Source: Xestospongia muta (lineage: Eukaryota > Porifera > Demospongiae > Haplosclerida > Petrosiidae). From it: a DNA stretch of 64,000 nucleotides. Where the stretch lies: contig OY848918.1 in assembly GCA_963693285.1 (NCBI GenBank), positions 16,180,263 to 16,244,262 of the forward strand. Direction: 5' to 3'. The position numbers and the translations under genes are program-made. Within the stretch, counting starts at the first letter, position 1; each line of letters begins with the position of its first letter. Under the pieces are notes generated by a model. It was given only the letters and a program-made list of their open reading frames with translations, had not been told where the DNA came from and did no database searches. Shown piece by piece: positions 1,733 to 57,768 of the stretch.

Positions 1733-4700
1733 GTATGTATATAAAGAGCAACATACCTAAAGTAATTGGAACACCACTCATCATCTCAGAATTTGTACTA
1801 GAATTAGAGCCTTGAGTGCCTATATTTAAAAAATTCAAATCAATATAATATTTATAATAGCAATTATAATACATTGTTTCAAAATAATATTCTCTGAGTT
1901 GTCTATATTGTCATCTTAATAGAGTTATTATGTTCACAAGATATCATTTGTAAACATTGCTCCTACCATGTGTATCCAAAATGGGAGGGACTTGAACCAC
2001 TTGGATTTGATGAGCTGATGCTTGATCTACAATTAAAGTAACAAATGAGATACATGTACTTAGCAGATCATACCTTTGTATCCAGTAAACCAATGTCCTT
2101 CTTTCTCTGTATCAAGTGGTATAGGCTCTAAATTTCTCATTAATGTGCACTGAACATATTTTGAGTAAATTAAGTTTGCTGGATGTGGTTTTATACTTAA
2201 ATCTGTCATGTGATCATGATGTCTACATAACAGACTAACTGTAAATTTGAGAGCAGAAGGCTCATAAGACAGGGGGTTAGCACAGGATGATACAGCTTCA
2301 TCCATTGTATGACGTATGACACTACAATTATTGTTAGGAATTCCAGTAAAGTAGACCTCCATCCAAGAAAGAGAATCAACCAGCAAAATTAACCCCTTTA
2401 AATCATTTGATAGTAATTTCACTCCATAGCGTAGTTGATTTGAGGATTTTGGTGATGAATCATCTAATGTAAAAGTTGGAGGATTCTTCCTATTTAATAA
2501 AGCAACTACAGTAGCAGGGAAAACACCCTATAAGATAATGATATTGTAGAGTTATGACTAACATTTATGACATAACTTACCTGAGGTACAACTTTGTTTT
2601 CAAATTGAAGCACCATTGGCTGGCATGTTTTCTTAAAACTTTTCTTTTCTTCTTCTGTAATATGACTAGTGGGAAGAACTGCTGGTATAAAATATTGCTG
2701 TGTTGAGGAAGTTGACGTAGTCTCCGTTAGATTCTTTAAAGGACTGACGATGCAAAGATGTGCCATTAATTCAAGGAAACTATCCTTAGTGAACAAACCC
2801 TCAACAAATTGGACATCCACCAGAGCATCGAGTAATTTACTTTCAAATATGCCTTTGTGTCGAAGCTGTTGATTCCAGCCTGGATAGGGAGCACAATCTT
2901 TGAAAATTTTATACTTCACAGGATCAACAAACGAAGCTCTAATTATGCTAGTAACCAAGTTGACTAGGTACTGTGGATTGGTGAATATAACATTATCATT
3001 AATCTCAGGAAAGTAGAGAACTAAAGACAATGAGTTGAGGTATTCAACACAGAGTGTTGTATCAAAAGCTTTCATTTTCAGCTCTCGACCAATATTCATA
3101 CACCTGTTAAGAGAGACCATACCATGATCCACCTTCTCTGCCACTTCTTTGAGACGTAATTCAAAGACATACCATCGAATTGGTATTTCTACTTTAGCAG
3201 CAACATTTTCATAACTGGTAATACGTGATCGGATATCTTCAGAGATTTGCTTCCTGCTCCATTTGCATGTATTATCAACAGGAAATATCAATTCATCTTC
3301 TAATTCATTATAGAATATGAAGTGATCACGAAACTCATGTAGAGCACGTAATAGCTGAGAATTTTTTTCATGCAGTGGCTCCAATTCCCTGAACAGAGCA
3401 GTGATTCCATGTGTATGATCATAATTTGTACCAACAATACAGAAAAGAGGCTTAAAATCTATTTTGTCAAAACATTTGGCAACTGTGTGCTTGGCTGATG
3501 CTATAGATCGGACAAAGTATTCTATCAGCTGAAGATTTGTCATCTGCAGCAAACTAGGCTGATGTACAACTTGACCATCAACAGAGTACAGAAACTTAGG
3601 CTTATCGCTCAGAGACTCATTTAATTTTGTGACAATAACATTGAGGCAATTTCCCCGAAGAAAAGCCCGCGAAACATCAGCAAATTGAGGCTGACCTCCA
3701 CTATCAAGGACGTGTATCCATGTTGACGCATGCAAGCCTTTTGACGTATTCCTCTTTGCCAAAACGTCAAGTATTTGGTCAGAGAAATAAGGAGCATTAG
3801 AATCAATAATAGACTTGGGATCTAAATTAGTGGCACCACTGGCAATTTTATGGGTCATAGGCTCATCAGAAGCAATATGTTGTTGATTGGTATGTTGGGC
3901 TTCTATAAATGATGTGGGTACATTGCGACGTTTATCCACACTAGACAGGGTGCTAGGAGTAGACTCATTATTAACTTCTTCAGAGTCCAAAAAATTTGGT
4001 AATGCTTCCATTACTTTCCTCAATAATTCAATTCCTTCCATTCTCTCCCAAACACTTCCATGCTTTTCTCCAACTACACGCTCAATTGCACGAATAGGTC
4101 TACTGGCAATAGCTGTGCTGTTATGACACTTTGGAGCTGGCCAATTGAAAAGCAAATGCAAAAAAGAGGTTTTGCCTACACCTGGAGGACCCATTAGTAC
4201 CAACTTGATAATTTCCACAATAACAGACCCTTCTCTTAAAGCTTGTGCAAATGATTTAGCTGATTCTGTAGAAGAGAAATGTAAGTCAACAATAATGAGA
4301 AATAACATAATAAAAACGATACATTTAATACAAAGATAATTTGATTAAAGTATCTTTGTATTAAACATATTACATTATGTTATGCAATAAATAATTAGCA
4401 TAAATGTGGTATTATAATAGCACATTTTTATTAATTACATATTCCATAACAATATATACATTGCAATTTCTACTAAAATAGTGCATATTGGTTGTTTTTA
4501 AGATAAGTGATAAGTAAAATATATAATATTTTACAATGTATTTCGTATATATTTGGCATAATAATTTATGATTACATAGATTAATATTATATAGAGATAT
4601 TTTAAACTATGTTCTTTTCCATAAACAATAATAACACTAAAGTGACATTTGCTGCCCAGCACTTTGACAATGCATTACTAGTTTTAACTACAAATGTGAT

Positions 4701-7700
4701 TCAACTAACCTGAATACAAGCATTGTCTAATGGCTTTAGTTGACACATTAGCCAGATCAATAGGTAATTTTCCATTCTAAAATGCAAACACTCAGTATTT
4801 ATACATACAATATATGACTTACCTTGTCTGGTATGGTAAGGTCAGCTCCAAATTGATGTAATAACTTTGCTACTTTCATTTTCTTTTTATTAAATGCAAG
4901 ATGAAGTGGAGTTTGTCTTTGCTATAAATATAAATATAAATATAATTTTAATAAGACTTTTTTGTTACCATATAATAATATAAATACAAGACTTTAAACA
5001 AGCCATCTTATCATAGTAATTATTAAATATTTATAGAAACAAGATCTATGAGTATCACAGAAAGACTTAAATGCTGTTATTAATTGTCAAACACCTGCAT
5101 ATACAACTAGTTTAACATTTTGCTATACCAAGTTTTATACAAAGATTTAAGAGGTCAGCTAGTAGGACCAAATCTTCTAAATTGGGTATGAAAATGCTAT
5201 TTACTGTTTTTTTCAGAAACTAACATAAAGACTAATGTACACATATCATACCAAAGTTGTTGATATATTTTGTCAAGAAATTTTTATTTTACTGAGAATT
5301 AGGAAAGTCCAAGTAAGTGACTTAGGGCTTTCTTCTAATTAGTCCCAACTGGTTAAACATCTAACAAGTAGGTATAGACAAGCACATACACTAGCAAATT
5401 GCTAATAATATTTAGTTTAAAATGTTTCACAAGGAAATATTATTCATACAAGATATATAACCTTGCTCTATGAACTAAAGGTAAAGGTCATTCAATGCAA
5501 TCTTGTAGATGATAATATGTTTCTTACTTTAACAGACTAATCTAACCAATCAACAGTTAGTATTCAGTTGTTTTACATTGTTACTGATAACTAGTTGTCA
5601 TTACCACAGATATGAATAAACAAGAAGGCAAAGCCAGACAAAGACCTGTGTAGTATGTTAAGTACAATTTAGTACACTTGTTAATTAGTGTTATTGACAC
5701 TTATGTATTGGTTTAGTTGTTAATGTTTTAGTGTTCACACCTTTTTGTTACCACTATTTACTCTACTTGTATTTAAGTCATTCTCTTATGTTGTTGTAAA
5801 AGTTCTACAGTTCTCAAATAATAAAGTTATAAAAATATACCCACTTTAAGTTGATATCTACGTGAAGTTAACAAGATATCACAACTGGCGATGAGGGTTC
5901 GTGGATATGGCAAGGTCTACTTTTGCTCAACTTCAGGAGTTTCAACCTGAATCAGAATTGCTGCCTATTTGGAACGTGCAAGTCTCTACTTCCAAGCTAA
6001 CTCTATTGCAGACGAGAAGCAAGTAGCAGTATTCCTTAGCGTAATTGGAGCGAAGAATTACTCTTTACTACGCAGTCTCACGGCACCAGAAAGGCCACAA
6101 GACAAGTCCTACGAGGACCTTGTGAGTGCACTCAGACCACATTTTTAGCCAAAGCCAATAGTCATTGAAGAAAGGTTCCATTTTTATCGTTGAAATCAAA
6201 CAGTCAAAGAATCGCTGGCACAGTATATAGCTCAACTACGTCGGTTAGCTACTAACTGTGACTTTGGCAAACAGTTAAACGATGCACTACGGGATAGACT
6301 TGTATGTGGGCTGAGAAGCGAAAGCATTCAAAAAAGGGTGCTAACAAAGGACAACTTAACGTTTGCGATAGCTTATAATCTCACCCAAGGAATGGAAGCG
6401 GCAGACAAGAACTTGAAGTCTCTACAAGGAGGAGACGGGATTGTCCAAAAGATAAAACGGGCCTCCCAGAAACCTAAAGACAAAGGGAGAAGAGACGCCT
6501 GCTATCGATGTGGTAAGCAAAACCACACGGCGAAAGAATGTAAATTTCTAGATGCAAAATGTCACAACTGTGGCAAGAAAGGGCACATTGCAACAGTTTG
6601 CCGATCAAAGCTGGCTAAATCAAATGCAAGTAAACGTAACCCACTGACAAAGTATGTGGGCTCAAAGGATAGTGATGCAGAGGATCATCAGCTGTTAACG
6701 ATTGGAGAAGAGTCTACAAGACCAATCACAATAGAGCTGCTAATAAATAGTAAGCCTCTGACGATGGAGGTTGACACTAGTCCAGCAGTTTCCCTAATAT
6801 CTGAGGCAACAATGAAGAAGTTGCTACCAAGAATGAATGTTCAACCTTCCAACATGACCTTAAAAACGTATACAAAGGAACAAATGAAGGTCCTAAGAAA
6901 AATAGAAGTAAATGTGGAGTATGGTAAACAGAAAGAAGTGCTCATTCTAATCGTTGTTAAAGGAAATGGTCCCAGTTTACTAGGAAAAAACTGGTTGACC
7001 CATATCTGCTTAGATTGGAAAAGAATTGCTGCAGTAACAGCGGTACAAGATACTAATCTACAAAGCCTGCTGGAACGTTATGCCAATTTGTTTAAAGAAG
7101 AGTTGGGAACTATTACTTTATATCAGGCAAAGCTTCGCATTAGAAAGGATGCAAATCCACAATTTTTCAAACCCCGACCAGTTCCGTTTGCTATTAAAAC
7201 GGCTATTGAAGAGGAACTAGTCTGACTTGAAGCCATCGGTGCAATTGTTAAAGTAGACCACAGTGATTGGGCATCACCAATAGTCCCAGTACCCAAGAAA
7301 GATGGAAAGTACCGCATCTGTGGTGACTATAAAGTCACAATCAACCAAGTGATGGAGGTGGACCAGAATCCACTCCATAAACCAGAAGATTTATTTGCCA
7401 CATTGGTTGGTGGAAAGAAATTTACGAAACTGGATCTGTCTCAAGCCTACCAACAACTTACACTAGACAACGAATCCAGAAAATATGTGACTATTAACAC
7501 ACACAAAGGACTTTACCAGTATACTCGCCTACTATTTGAGATGGCATCAGCGCCAGCTATTTTTCAAAGGCTTATGGATACTATCCTTCAAAATATACCC
7601 AACGTTATATGTAACATTGACGACATTCTAGTGACTAGTAAAGATGATCAAAACCACCTGTGCAATCTTGTTTCAGCATTACAACAGCTACAGAAGTACA

Positions 7701-10700
7701 ACATCCACATCAAGAAGGCCAAGTGTGAAATTCTACAGGATTTTGTGGAATATTTGGGTCACAAGATTGATGCAGAGGGTTTGCATACTACAAATAGCAA
7801 GCTCGAAGCAATTGTTCAAGCTCCAAAACTGAGAAATATCCAAGAGCTCCGATCTTTTCTCAGACTGTTGAACTATTATGGCAAGTTCATACCTAATCTA
7901 GCCACTATCATCCACCCACTGAATAACTTGCTACAACACAACTGTAAGTGGCAGTGGATGTCCGAATGTTCAGAAGCTTTTCAACAAGCAAAGAAGCCTT
8001 AACTACATCTCAGGTATTAGTCCATTATGACCCTACTTTACCTCTTTCACTTGCAGGTGATGCTTCAGCATACGGTATTGGAGCTGTCATTTTTCATACT
8101 TTACCAGATGGAAGTGAATGACCAATTGCATTTGCCTCGAGGACACTTCCATCAAGTGAGAGAAACTATGCACAGTTAGAGAAGGAAGCTCTATCTCTCA
8201 TATATGGAGTGAAAAAGTTCCATCAATATTTCTATGGGCGTAAATTCACTCTATATACAGATCACAAAACACTTACGGCAATACTTGGAGCTAAAAAGGG
8301 AATACCTCCACTAGCAGCAGCACGTTTACACGATGGGCAATTCTCTTATCAGACTACCAGTTTAACATTAGTACAAGTCGACACTCACTCATGCTAATGC
8401 AGATGGATTGTCTTGACTACCATTACCAGACTCTAGAGAAGATGCTGTTGTCTCTTCTAGAGAACCTACAATTTTCAATTTATCATAGTTACAAACATTG
8501 CTAGTCACGGCAGTGCAGATTGAAACTGTGACAAGAAATGACCCAGTTCTTAGTAAAGTTCTGACTTACACTAGAGGTGAATGGCCACAAGTAAATCCAG
8601 ATGAACTGAAACCCTTCAGTACGAGAAGTCAAGAATTAACGCTGGAGGGAGATTGTATAATGTGGGGAATACGTGTAATTATTCTAAAGAAATTTCAAAG
8701 CTATGTATTAGAAGAGCTACACAGTGAGCACATAGGCATGTCAAGAATGAAAGTCTTGCAAGAAGCTATGTGTGGTGGCCAGGCCTTGATAAAGATATTG
8801 AGGACCTTGCTAAATTATGTCTAGCATGTCAAAGTCATAAGTATGCACTGACAGTAGCTCCACTTCTTCCTTGGACATAACCAACATCACCATGGAACAG
8901 AATCCATATTGACTTTGCAGGTCCATTTCAGGGAAAGATGTTTTAATAGTAGTTGATGCACACTCTAAATGGCCTGAAGTGTTTGAAATGTCTAGTACTA
9001 CTGTATCAGCAACCATAGCTACTATACGAAGATTATTCTCATCTTATGGATTACCTCAGCAACTGGTCTCAGATAATGGACCACAATTTACATCTGAAAA
9101 ATTTAGTACTTTTCTCAAAGAAAATGATGTGAAGCATATTCGCTGCTCACCATATCATCCGTCATCGAATAACTTAGCAGAACACTTTGTCCAGATTTTC
9201 AAGCAAGCTATGAAAGCTAGCACAAATGGTAACAGAAGTTTCCAGCATCACCTGGCTAACTTTCTTTTTAGATACCGTACAACGCCACATGCTACTACAA
9301 ATAGAGCACCATGTATGATGTTTCTTAACAGAAGTTTATGATTTCGATTTGATCTGCTTAAACCTAACCCTAAATAAAAAGTTACGGAAAAACAAGCTGA
9401 ACAAGCAAGACACCACGATCACCATTCTACATCAAGAAAAATGATTGTAGGACAAAATGTAATGTCCAGAAATTTTCGTTAAGGAAAAAAAATGGATACC
9501 AGGAGTTATTGTTAAGAGATTAGGACCACTAACATATTTAATTGAACTAAAACAAGGATTACGTTGGAAACGACACATTGACCATCTTAGGAAATGGAAT
9601 GGTAGTTACCAACCTAATAATGTTGCGGATGATGCATTCATGATGTTACCATCACAGCCTAGAACAGAAGAACCACAACTAGTTCAAGAAGAATCTCAGT
9701 ATCTAACTCGTAATCGCAGACCACCTGAAAGACTTACTTATTATGATCATGTAACCCCAACAGCAGCAACTACTTAATTAATTGGGGAGGAATGTAGTAT
9801 GTTAACTACAATTTAGTACACTTGTTAATTAGTGTTATTGACACTTATGTATTGGTTTAGTTGTTAATCTTTTAGTATTCACACCTTTTTGTTAACACTA
9901 TTTATTCTACTTGTATTTAAGTCATTCTCTTATGTTGTTGTAAAAGTTCTACAGTTCTCAAATAATAAAGTTGTAAAAATATACCCACTTTAAGTTGATA
10001 TTTACGTGAAGTTAACAAGATATCACAACCTGTCTCTAGAATTGGATACGTTGTTAGAAACAATCCTTTGTGCTTCGAGATTTTGAATTGTTTTTACATG
10101 TGTTAATTGTAATGTATATGTCATTAATGACCAATGTTTTTTATGCGTACCAAATGTCATAAATATCTAGTCATACAATCAGTTTTGAAGATTAAGGTTT
10201 AGAAAGTTATGTGTGGTTATAGTCATTTAACTGATATTGGTTTAATTCAGCTCCAGATTACTGGATATGACTTGTATTATTTATTATAGTGACAAGTTTC
10301 AGTATACAATGAAGATATAATTGTTGTAGTGCAGTGATATTTCTGTTGTTTGTGTTTTCCAGAATACTCCTGTTTGTTAGTATATTCTAACTATGTCTAT
10401 TAGTTAGTCATGGTTGATATAATTATAGTATTAACTTTTGATATAAACAGGTTATACACAGGAAAAAACACAGGGTTAAAAATACTTACAATGGTTGTTT
10501 CAACTATATTACAAATTGGTTAATTTCACCTACATGTAATTGAAGTGACACTCCTGGGTTACTTTAACTTAAATTGCTTAATGCAATCAAATTTGTTGAA
10601 GCTACCATGTGACTGACTGTAGCTACAACTAGTTGAGGTAGTTTAATATTAAAATAACAATGTAATCTAGTTATTTAAACCAATCTGTAAAGGGTGAACA

Positions 10701-54383: not shown

Positions 54384-54392
54384 AATAAAAAT
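54384..54392. repeat. Target-site duplication of right-arm MULE element (one mismatch)
   Basis: AATAAAAAT versus AATAAGAAT at 57760-57768; the latter is the complement of ATTCTTATT in the left arm. Confidence 0.8.
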
Positions 54393-54689
54393 GGCAGTGT
54401 CCAGTGAACCGACATTCGGTTCACTTAGATGTGGTTATTGAACCGACGGGCGCGTGACAAGTATGAATATAATTAAAATTGACCACAAGAATTTTAATTC
54501 ATGTAAAATAGGACACAGCCTTCAGACAAAGTGACTACATCTTCACACACACCAGCCATTTCTTCAACTTCATCATTCTCCCCTCCTACATCATGTATAA
54601 AATTCATTATGCAATGTTTTTAGAAAACGCTACCCTGCTGTCTACGAGTGCTACTATCATTGGCTTTTCCAATTCCCACAAACTCTGAA

Positions 54690-55060
54690 GTCTCTAAAAT
54701 TCTGTCTTTTTATGATCAAAATCACTACCACAGGATTCTGACACTATAGATGCTAGCCTCAGACATATTGATTGTGCGGCTCTGAATCTCTGATGCTGGC
54801 TCTTTGGTTTAGGGTGTGTTAGGTCAGCTGAAAAAATAGAAAATGAATCAAGAGTTTTGCTGTCACTGAAGATACTATGAATAGTATTGTAGTGAGCCAT
54901 ATACCATCTTCTGTGTGCCAAATCTTCATCAAACATAGGCATTTCAAGTCTATTTCTTGAAGTGAAAATGTGATGACAAGGCAACTTCATAGTCTGATGA
55001 AAATAACGAGAGAACTTGACTGATGAAGGTTCAGTATCCTTGACTTTTCCATCAATAAAT
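54690..55060 (-). pseudogene. Degenerate SWIM zinc-finger region, right copy
   Basis: Reads FHQTMKLPCHHIFTSRNRLE and PMFDEDLAHRRW, very close to the SWIM C-x-C...C-x-H part of ZSWIM1/3 (FHQT...LPC.H). The C-x-C half appears as F-S-R-Y, so the zinc ligands are lost. Downstream, SIFSADLTHPKPKSQ is polar linker. Confidence 0.65.
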
Positions 55061-55079
55061 TGTACTTCTCAACTTTTTC

Positions 55080-55479
55080 AAGCTGTTACCTTACAAGTTT
55101 GGCTGCATAGGAAGTGAGGAGTCTGCTGTACTGGGCTTCTACTAATGATCCAATTGCCTTGACAGAAATCTTTGATGCACAGGTGATTGCTATATGATCT
55201 CTTTTGATTTGAAGAGAGGCAAGTACTGTCTGAAAGTCTTTGAAAAAACTCTCCAGATCTGAAAAGGCAGAACAGACACTCTTGATCTTCTGGTTGATAC
55301 ACTCCAGCCAAATGTTTGTTCCGATATCCCGAAAGTGAAACTTTTGATAAGCTAAGTGCCCATTCATGCCTGATTGGATGCCAGCGAGACTCAAAATAGT
55401 CAGTAATTTGAACAAGACCTACATCATGAAGCTGCTTCCTCGTTACTTCATAGATTTCCTCTGTTCTACTGTAAGCCAA
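55080..55479 (-). pseudogene. Transposase middle region, right copy
   Basis: Two overlapping frames hold pieces such as WHPIRHEWAL and DIGTNIWLECINQKIKSVCS with DLESFFKDFQTVLASLQIKR. They follow the core in ZSWIM-type proteins. A frameshift near 55330 separates them. Absent from the left-arm copy. Confidence 0.6.
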
Positions 55480-55499
55480 TTTTTGTAAAAGATCAAGAG

Positions 55500-55950
55500 A
55501 CAGACTTCTCTCTTAGCAGATCTGCTAATCTAATTGACATAACATCAATTGTCAACTCTCTTCCAAAACAACTTAACACATGAAATGGACAGAGTTGTAA
55601 AGTTACATCAGGAAATGCTTCATATCTTTGTCAGCCATGATCACGTTTGTCTCAGTCTATGGTGCATTATACTTCTGCAATGTACCAATTATTTCATTAA
55701 TGATAGCCCTTTGTTCTGATGTTACCAAGCACGCAGGAATAATTTCACTTTGTCCATTTTCATCACAGATTAGAAATACATAAAGTGGCATCTTTAATGA
55801 ATCCAACTTGTGTGTTGCATCAATGAATAAAATCTCAGGGAATGCCTGAAATGTGTCCTTCGATGTTTTATCCAGGTAAAAAATGCATAGGAGGCTGTGC
55901 TCCTTGTCAGTGAGCCCATCAACAGTAATAGATGAATCCTGCTGATTCAT
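55500..55950 (-). pseudogene. RNase-H-like transposase core, right copy
   Basis: Reads ITVDGLTDKEHSLLCIFYLD, EILFIDATHKLDSLKMPLYV (first catalytic Asp in FIDATHKL at about 55821-55819) and CDENGQSEIIPACLV, then VIMADKD and a shifted C-x-x-H region. A 65-bp palindrome disturbs its 5' side (55909-55973). In ZSWIM1/3 and MULE transposases this fold carries the DDE catalytic triad. Confidence 0.75.
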
Positions 55951-55973
55951 CTATTACTGTTGATGGGCTCACT
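55909..55973. repeat. Perfect palindrome, 30-bp arms and 5-bp loop
   Basis: Arms 55909-55938 and 55944-55973 are exact reverse complements; the loop is CTGCT. The left-arm copy has only one arm at the corresponding place, so it arose in the right arm by local inverted duplication. Confidence 0.93.
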
Positions 55974-56419
55974 GGATTCATCTATGTTTACTAGTTATGA
56001 TATGACATCTTGCAGGTCTTTCCCATGAGATTCTGTTTTCAACCGTAGATTAGTTGCAATGTTTTTGAAGTCACGCAAAGTGATAAGTTTACCTAAATGC
56101 AAAAGTACATCAAAAATAGCTTCTGAGACAAAGACATGATGCAGACAACACATCATATAGTCCATATAACAATTTCCTGATTACCTGTGGTAGAAATAAA
56201 CATGATTTTGAATTAATTTCATATTTACATTCTTCCTTAATGTCCTATTATAATAGATAAGTATCTGATAACATGTCAGAACAAAAGTGTTCAGTGAACT
56301 GATATAGTGTCAATTACGCTAGGGAGGTTAGGCTTAGGCCAACTGTTTAGGTTGGTGCAGTTCACAGAGCATAATAATGGCTCACATTTGCAGTGGTCTG
56401 CTTCCATCCTTCGGTCTAG

Positions 56420-56705
56420 ACTTAAAGGCCCGTCCACCATGAATGCAAGCAAGCATAACAAAAGTGTGGTTCATGTCATTAGGTACTTTGTTTACTAGCT
56501 ATGGAGAGAATCTTTGAACTTGAATTAGAATTCTAGAATCTCGTACGTAAAACTGATAGTAGATTTTTCTTTGAAAAGCTTCAATAACCTCTTTTGCTTG
56601 AGTCCAGCTTTTAAACTTGGTTCCAACTTCAAGTATCCCACTAGCTTCTGTCGCGGTGGCGCTATCACCAAAGTCTACTGTTGTCCTTTTACCAGGCTTC
56701 CATGA
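56420..56705 (-). pseudogene. ZSWIM1/3-like N-terminal domain, right copy
   Basis: Reads KPGKRTTVDFGDSATATEAS, VGTKFKSWTQAKEVIEAFQR, IYYQFYVRDSRILI and then a TAG where the left copy continues KLVNK. Begins about 10 bases after the USP stop codon, so a splice or read-through once probably joined them. Confidence 0.6.
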
Positions 56706-56711
56706 TAGCCA

Positions 56712-57521
56712 TTAGCCACAAATGTAGTCTATAATATTGTCTGAATTATCTAACTCATCAAAAATCAAGTCTTGAAGGTGGATTTTCTTGTTATCCTGTT
56801 CAACATAATATCGTGCACTATTATTAATATAATTACTAACTTGTATTTTCAATACAAGCACACTACTAGTCTGTGTGTTACTGTTGCTGTCATTACGTTT
56901 ATTACATGTCAGTGTGATAAAAAGAGTCCAATAGGTGATAAAAATATTACTGAATTGTAACCTGTTTCCATCCAGTCATAAAAAATAATTGTTCTACTAA
57001 TTGTTTTGTCCTGTAGTCAATAATAAGATTTTAAAATGTGATACAAGGCCTTACCTTGTATCAAATAGTTCAGTTAAATTATTGACTAGTTGGATGTAAT
57101 ACTCATGAGCATCCTGGTATCTACCAGGAACAAATGATTCATTCCTATTTGTTTGCAAAAATAACCTCTGATATTTATTGTATTTTTTCTCTTTTACTTG
57201 ATAGAGTTTGAACAAGAGATTCTGATGGAAGTGTTGTTGTACCACTGCTATACCTATACATGCTGTATAGGTTTAGTAATACCTTTAGTAAACATACTCC
57301 TGTGTGACAGCATAACTTTGTATTAATTTGATTTTTTTGATTTTAAATACAATATATACTATACCTGATTTTGTACATTCACAACATGTATGTTTGCTGG
57401 TTGAGTGCAGGAATTCTAAAAAGGCAGGGTGATTTAGCAGACACTGGAGGACATTACTAGCATAGCAATTGCTAGCTGTGTTGGTAATACCAGGAGGCTG
57501 TAATGCTATGTAAAACAGCAT
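56712..57521 (-). CDS. USP (peptidase C19) N-terminal half, three exons, inside a MULE-like transposon
   Basis: Exons 57521-57365, 57247-57055 and 56949-56712 have GT/AG borders (introns 117 and 105 bp) and phases that match exactly, giving about 195 residues. The Cys box is PGITNTASNCYASNVLQCLL with the catalytic Cys at residue 19; compare the G-L-x-N-x-G-N-T-C-Y-x-N-S-x-L-Q box of USPs. QDAHEYYIQLVNNL at 97-110 is the conserved Q-D-A-H-E-F motif. Exon 3 has TCNK, VLVLKIQVSN and IHLQDLIFDEL...YICG, like the USP finger region. The His and Asp boxes are missing: the frame stops at TAA 56714-56712, just before the ZSWIM-like region. USPs remove ubiquitin by a Cys-His-Asp mechanism; this truncated copy cannot be a complete enzyme. 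It could be a captured host gene or an original domain of the transposon protein. Confidence 0.75.
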
Positions 57522-57759
57522 GGCTATAACTTTATTTCAGGAAATAAACGTGTATATTTTGTTTTGGCGCATGCGTGGGTCAGTAATGGACAAAAGGGTT
57601 AAAAATTGAAGGATAACCTTCTCCGGCTAATGGCACTCAGGCTCCATCTCATCCACTCAAGATACCACGTGGTCTTAATTATATTCATGTTTCTCACGCG
57701 ACTATTGTTTCAATAACCAACATCTTACTGGACCGAATGTGGGTTGACTAAACACTGCC

Positions 57760-57768
57760 AATAAGAAT
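57760..57768. repeat. Target-site duplication of right-arm MULE element
   Basis: AATAAGAAT, complement of the left-arm target site. Confidence 0.85.

Follow-up and report, generated by a model that had tools for sequence, protein, structure and literature searches.

A deubiquitinase-like reading frame inside a Xestospongia muta Mutator-like transposon is the left end of a nested, truncated element from a family encoding C19 and C48 proteases

How does a deubiquitinase-like reading frame come to lie inside a DNA transposon of a sponge? In a stretch of 64,000 nucleotides of Xestospongia muta DNA (hereafter the window; positions given without a contig refer to it), three exons of a USP-type peptidase (C19) occupy positions 56712-57521. 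They are enclosed by the inverted ends of a Mutator-like element (MULE) and precede a ZSWIM-type transposase. The first-pass annotation took the deubiquitinase for a gene carried by this transposon. We propose instead that these frames are the left end of a non-autonomous element which arose by internal deletion within a Mutator-like family encoding both C19 and C48 proteases, and that this derivative was inserted into an older copy of a GGCAGTG MULE. We give this reading roughly nine chances in ten; the figure refers to the origin of the window copy and not to the role of the proteases.

Two nested elements in the window

Two mobile elements, one nested in the other, are present at 54384-57768. 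The sequences GGCAGTG and CACTGCC are the ends of the outer one. Its terminal inverted repeats at 54393-54476 (left, plus strand) and 57675-57759 (right, minus strand) pair with 82-83% complementarity, so that the inverted ends described earlier are confirmed. The 9-bp target duplications described with them are less than perfect: aataaaaat on the left (54384-54392) and aataagaat on the right (57760-57768) agree in 8 of 9 positions. The transposase of the outer element is encoded on the minus strand and is decayed. Its ZSWIM1-3/MULE RNaseH-like core lies at 55657-55950 (PF21056 68.2 bits, PF10551 29.6 bits), and the USP frames are indeed upstream of it and on the same strand, as had been noted. 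A ZSWIM3_N-like N-terminal frame (56499-56711, minus strand; PF21599 14 bits, cut-off 27.8) runs into the end of the nested element. The decayed C-terminal part is distributed over several frames of the minus strand at 54694-55512; it is assigned by position only, and these frames contain no Pfam domain above its cut-off.

Two further features of the outer sequence deserve mention. Within its transposase, at 55908-55974, lie two perfectly complementary 31-bp arms around a loop of 5 bp; one arm also matches three further outer-element copies in inverted orientation. The motif GGCAGTG occurs at 12 sites in the window (two of them being the ends of the outer element) against 2.85 expected, so more elements with such ends may lie there. 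Elsewhere in the window, the frames at 6194-9341 look by eye like those of a Gypsy-type LTR retrotransposon, with CCHC knuckles, reverse transcriptase and integrase, and an open frame of 612 aa with a P-loop on the minus strand at 2506-4344 has the look of a Roc/COR GTPase.

The USP frames are part of the second element, which is 935 bp long (56704-57638, minus strand) and has its own termini. These form the inverted pair GATAGCCATTAGCC / GGCTAATGGCACTC. The near terminal repeat (57625-57638) reads GAGTGCCATTAGCC on the minus strand; the far one (56704-56717, minus strand) abuts exon 3 where the deletion was closed. The element is flanked by a target duplication of 9 bp with one extra base on the left, AGGCTTCCAT at 56694-56703 and AGGCTCCAT at 57639-57647, both delimited by comparison with insert-free copies. 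A DNA search with the left part of the outer element gave 65 matches, many of which stop near window position 56698, with the right terminal repeat following some tens of bases on. Nine copies that reach the insertion site were chosen (L051-L059). The USP piece is absent at the site from all nine; eight can be aligned past it, small gaps apart, as far as the terminal repeat, and L051 diverges beyond it. Comparison with these copies places the insert at 56704-57638.

It could be argued that the GGCAGTG MULE itself carries or has captured the USP sequence, in the manner of Pack-MULE cargo, because the frames are enclosed by the inverted repeats of that element and lie upstream of its transposase, in the same orientation. 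The nine empty sites speak against such cargo, and so do the termini and the target duplication that the USP piece has of its own. Moreover, pieces of the outer transposase match none of 20 other USP regions of the genome at E <= 1e-3. We regard this explanation as highly improbable, and at the window locus the empty sites rule it out. With the USP part missing from all other GGCAGTG copies compared, the earlier proposal has to be abandoned for the outer element, and a separate nested element takes its place.

The 922 bp at 56717-57638 represent the left end of elements of 5.60-5.73 kb, with identity of 92-95% (L031 95.0%, L034 94.0%, L035 94.0%, L036 92.5%, L032 92.2%). After these 922 bp the sequence of the window copy continues directly with the final 13 bp at the far end of those elements, that is, with the far inverted repeat. 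Left end and jump together identify it as an internal-deletion derivative.

All three exons of the window copy are on the minus strand. Exon 1 (57365-57521) contains the Cys box NTASNCYASNVLQCLL and alone reaches 23.8 bits with PF00443, exon 2 (57055-57247) contains the QDAHEYY motif, and exon 3 (56712-56949) includes a stop and is cut off by the deletion. The three-exon structure with phased splicing was proposed correctly: the borders 57521-57365, 57247-57055 and 56949-56712 are in phase and give a single open frame of 195 codons, and the alternative acceptors, 57253 for exon 2 and 56961 for exon 3, are likewise in phase. Spliced with these alternatives, the reading scores 35.9 bits with PF00443 (cut-off 23.9). 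The expected C19 profile is thus supported, but in the window it covers only positions 2-133 of 254. The stop of the frame (56712-56714) lies inside the nested terminus, before either the second zinc pair or the His box is reached, and the window copy does not hold a complete USP domain. Lacking the USP histidine box, it cannot give a working protease; as it also lacks its own transposase, any movement would have to be driven in trans. Presumably, the derivative was mobilised in trans by a full-length relative and then inserted into the older GGCAGTG MULE copy. Its nesting, its truncation and its source family are plain from the comparisons above.

The intact USP frame beside a decayed transposase had been considered unexpected. 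However, simulated neutral decay leaves the window frame unbroken often enough, namely in 0.09-0.40 of trials at 3-4% divergence and in 0.04-0.23 at 5-6%; the difference between the window copy and L031, about 5%, is the sum over both branches. The open frame therefore requires no selection. We rejected it as a signal of selection, which is argued only from the comparison between families.

The full-length source family

A 123-aa USP reading, searched against the genome from which the window comes, gave 170 matches, and 20 regions of about 9.9 kb around USP matches were examined. In five of them (L031, L032, L034, L035 and L036) the USP match forms the left end of an element of 5.60-5.73 kb; the remaining 15 are shorter, rearranged or diverged. 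Their flanks and ends agree with those of MULEs, which have target duplications of 8-11 bp and terminal inverted repeats. Target duplications of 8 bp (matching in 7-8 of 8 positions) flank four of the five near-complete copies, next to the 9-10 bp of the window copy: GAGATGAG is exact in L031, AATATATT is exact in L032 with an offset of one A, L034 and L035 match in 7 of 8 positions, and in L036 none was recognised. Perfect terminal repeats measure 14 bp in L031, 18 bp in L035 and 24 bp in L032, those of L034 and L036 being weaker. An 18-base pattern from the termini has 21 occurrences in the genome, its reversed control none. All five near-complete copies are interrupted; for example, the transposase reading of L031 has two in-frame stops and that of L035 a change of frame. 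Several partial copies of the USP-ULP-MULE element are clustered on one strand at C1:33896167-33913757 of the same genome.

On one strand, L031 encodes in this order a USP domain (C19), an Ulp1/SENP-type domain (C48), a C2H2-like finger, a MULE/ZSWIM core, a SWIM-like pattern and a PHD-like finger. Exon joins in L031 and in L060 (a copy of a second family, see below) were made by eye, and splicing is presumed from them. A gene model obtained by dynamic programming gave plausible USP and transposase parts and put the Ulp1 segment in what is presumably the wrong frame. Its DCG motif was missing from that model, and for this reason the joins by eye were used. The joined USP domain of 306 aa is complete (PF00443 66.2 bits, model positions 2-254 of 254). 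It includes the Cys box, QDAHEYY, the pairs CNKC and CGSC, and HNRHYSSF...WFYISDTN...DPFMLFYQ, motifs which we take to be the Cys box, two CxxC pairs and the His box of such enzymes. The Ulp1-type segment, CHWTLL / VIDFNQRQAEYFDS / DQPLQTNGVDCGVFV, scores 42 bits with PF02902 in joined pieces (cut-off 20.7) and has the C48 catalytic set H-W...D...Q...DCG. By sequence, the solved structures closest to the USP domain are those of yeast Ubp8 and USP15/21/2 (best 29.6 bits); the Ulp1 segment comes closest to SENP1/2, with a best score of 36.8 bits and SENP1 nearest.

The transposase core of L031 reaches 39.8 bits with PF10551 (cut-off 27.6) and 35.1 bits with PF21056 (cut-off 27.2) in joined frames. 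The Gypsy-type integrase core (rve), which in Ginger elements comes with a GPY/F motif, gave no match at E <= 1 on the frames of L031; a MULE core is found instead. Downstream of the core, a SWIM-like C-x-C-x(n)-C-x-H pattern, CTCLDSILHATVCKHVHF, was recognised by eye and has no Pfam SWIM match. The C2H2-like finger (21.5 bits, cut-off 25.2) and the PHD-like finger (PF00628 23.8 bits in the frame alone and 17.3 in the joined reading, cut-off 24) stay below their cut-offs. The arrangement of USP, ZSWIM and PHD that the first-pass annotation suggested looking for in full-length copies thus exists on one strand, with a PHD-like finger below its cut-off, in elements of 5.6-5.7 kb; these are not GGCAGTG elements, and their Ulp1-type protease had not been mentioned.

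The association of the three parts extends over the genome. Taking one row per locus, we compiled 77 USP loci, the window's included, from the listed matches among the 170. When 150 of 151 transposase matches are set against them, a match follows 0.3-7 kb downstream, on the same strand, at 20 of the 77 listed loci, and at none is there one upstream or on the other strand. Ulp1 matches (26 loci from 58 matches) are situated downstream of 13 of the 77 listed USP loci, again with none upstream or opposite. The Ulp1 loci in turn are followed by a transposase match 0.3-5 kb downstream on the same strand in 15 of 26 cases, with one upstream and none opposite, as judged from 90 of the 151 transposase matches. 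At 57 of the 77 listed USP loci, including that of the window, no match to the transposase of the full-length family is found nearby, and the USP half thus also spreads without the transposase. Four ZSWIM/MULE transposases with open frames of 689-713 aa and about 50% identity (C1:18220207, C7:3832691, C11:4084086 and C6:5999801) have no USP or Ulp1 match nearby among the matches listed; each is accompanied by a second, partial match on the opposite strand 4.3-4.8 kb off.

In compiling the 77 loci, 28 listed rows were left out as presumed contig-end repeats. Fifteen of these were checked: 14 are within 20 kb of a contig end, and C2:22043767 is 101 kb off. The repeat in question is found near many contig ends, with a spacing of about 545 bp on C7 (e.g. 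L062, C7:6330-6600), and also at C1:9913, C5:6543, C6:5376, C6:8569671, C7:8278644, C8:6003, C8:8278438 and C10:6487373. In L062, a part of the first USP exon (81-89% DNA identity to the elements) is fused to sequence from farther along the element. Apparently, L062 is a deletion derivative that was built into subtelomeric repeats.

Maintenance of the proteases and related systems

A second family (L060, L061; C1:12394602-12399094) has the same order of USP, Ulp1 and transposase. Its left terminus, TAGTGCCATTAGCCGGAG, is like that of the first family. A 760-aa transposase frame is free of stops, and its core is 59% identical to that of L031. In L060, the USP part scores 76.1 bits in two stretches and the joined ULP part 43.1 bits, the stop-bearing stretch of exon 2 being excluded. 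Three stops interrupt that stretch, which corresponds in the alignment to USP exon 2, and most of exon 3 could not be placed in a single open frame; a further intron or decay may account for this.

Comparison of L031 with L060 shows where the changes fall. Over 233 codons of USP, differences at positions 1, 2 and 3 number 78, 54 and 125, and over 82 codons of ULP they number 12, 10 and 37. The in-frame pN/pS is 0.40 for USP and 0.22 for ULP against 1.07-1.55 in the wrong frames, with synonymous change near saturation (pS 0.58-0.70). We read this codon bias between families as purifying selection that acted on the two proteases before decay set in among the present copies. The bias is weaker among copies of the first family, with pN/pS of about 0.2-0.6 for USP and of about 0.5-0.7 for ULP in two pairs, a third pair showing no synonymous change. 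Copies of the first family decay after insertion, which is the setting of its weaker bias. With its place kept in two families and these substitution patterns between them, USP looks like an old, maintained part of the lineage.

Outside this genome, the joined full reading found 18 proteins, covering 41-58% of the query; in the five inspected by eye the matching part is the transposase. A Pfam scan of nine of the 18 gave no USP match at E <= 0.1, and a PHD match in four, one of them above its cut-off. The annotated eukaryote protein P0017 (1356 aa; 35% identity over 58% of the query) resembles the full-length family in having, in the same order, an Ulp1-like part (19.4 bits, cut-off 20.7), a C2H2-like one, a MULE part (24.4 bits, cut-off 27.6), a SWIM-like pattern seen by eye and a PHD-like part (18.7 bits, cut-off 24). 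It differs in giving no USP match. Because USP matches are missing from P0017 and from the scanned proteins, the order Ulp1-C2H2-MULE-PHD may be the older one and USP an addition. Among 1241 candidates of about 751-2390 aa from a large protein database, the USP region of the full-length reading matched nothing at E <= 0.001, and no fused product is documented there. The first USP exon as query gave 37 short matches in contigs that may belong to other genomes.

Parts of this architecture are already in print. Passages of PMC2836005 describe the Ulp1 domain in Mutator elements of hydra, lancelet and plants, and a figure legend there shows such a domain and a PHD domain for transposases of Ginger1 and Mutator. 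Those Ulp1-bearing Mutator elements share with our full-length family the combination of MULE transposase and C48; the passages mention no C19 in them, whereas our family has USP first and the Ulp1-type domain next. The same source gives the T. vaginalis protein XP_001314237.1 as transposase_11 plus Peptidase C19, with reference to a paper on an IS5-like transposon. Here, too, a C19 deubiquitinase is joined to a DNA transposase, but the transposase of this protist protein is of another type and no C48 is mentioned with it, in contrast to MULE/ZSWIM plus C48 in the full-length family. A table in PMC6446971 has 'Ovarian Tumour Gene' in the motif column for MuDR-6_HM, a cnidarian MULE. This is likewise an animal MULE with a deubiquitinase-type cysteine protease; it has OTU instead of USP, and the table lists no Ulp1 for it. 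Rehavkus, described in PMC6446971 by a MULE-related transposase, a PHD finger, 9-bp duplications and a minisatellite before the 3' terminal repeat, resembles our family in its transposase and duplications, and perhaps in the PHD finger, whose counterpart in L031 scores just below its cut-off; it differs in that no protease is listed. The main text of PMC6446971 contains no word starting with ubiquitin, peptidase, protease or ULP, and a term search of PMC13359780 found none of ubiquitin, peptidase, protease, PHD, SWIM and OTU. In the literature searched (subscription papers and Repbase were outside the search), we found no description of C19 and C48 in one animal MULE. On record in these sources are thus Mutator elements with Ulp1 and PHD, one with OTU, and C19 with an unrelated transposase; new here are the combination of C19 with C48, the transposase superfamily in which it occurs, and its maintenance.

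Possible role of the proteases

The USP, the Ulp1-type domain, the fingers, the RNaseH-fold transposase, the SWIM-like motif and the PHD-like finger are probably encoded by one spliced transcript. The two proteases would then free host silencing or repair proteins of ubiquitin and SUMO, or act in this way on the transposase complex itself, at the element or at its target, and the PHD finger would anchor the complex on chromatin. Judged from sequence, such removal of ubiquitin and SUMO is the most likely role of the proteases. PMC2836005 suggests, in the part consulted, that the ubiquitin pathway participates in transposition, and poses as a question the role of ubiquitin and SUMO proteases (OTU, Ulp1) in unrelated DNA transposons. 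Tentatively, we go one step further and picture a long-lived Mutator-like lineage whose product unites a deubiquitinase, a SUMO protease and a chromatin-reading transposase, i.e. a two-protease anti-silencing transposon that on moving would remove ubiquitin and SUMO from host silencing and repair factors. We consider this full picture possible rather than probable, and hold it lower because exon 2 of L060 contains stops and the codon bias among copies of the first family is weak.

The same weak bias would be compatible with USP being inert cargo that hitch-hikes in the full-length family and has no part in transposition. MULEs are known to pick up host sequence (PMC6446971, in part), and many USP copies are truncated or broken. 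Yet two families with like left termini keep USP in the same place with its Cys, His and Asp motifs, and the change between them is mostly at third positions, so that we find inert cargo unlikely. Slightly less credible still is self-processing, in which the USP or the Ulp1 domain would cut the polyprotein of the element instead of host ubiquitin or SUMO. The position of both segments directly upstream of the transposase, on one strand, would suit it; their nearest solved relatives, however, are deubiquitinases and SENPs, and no ubiquitin-like tag was noticed in the frames on casual reading.

The window locus illustrates how a nested deletion derivative can pass for a captured gene. Beyond this, a lineage that keeps USP and an Ulp1-type domain in two diverged families would offer a direct test of the action of transposons on host ubiquitin and SUMO pathways.
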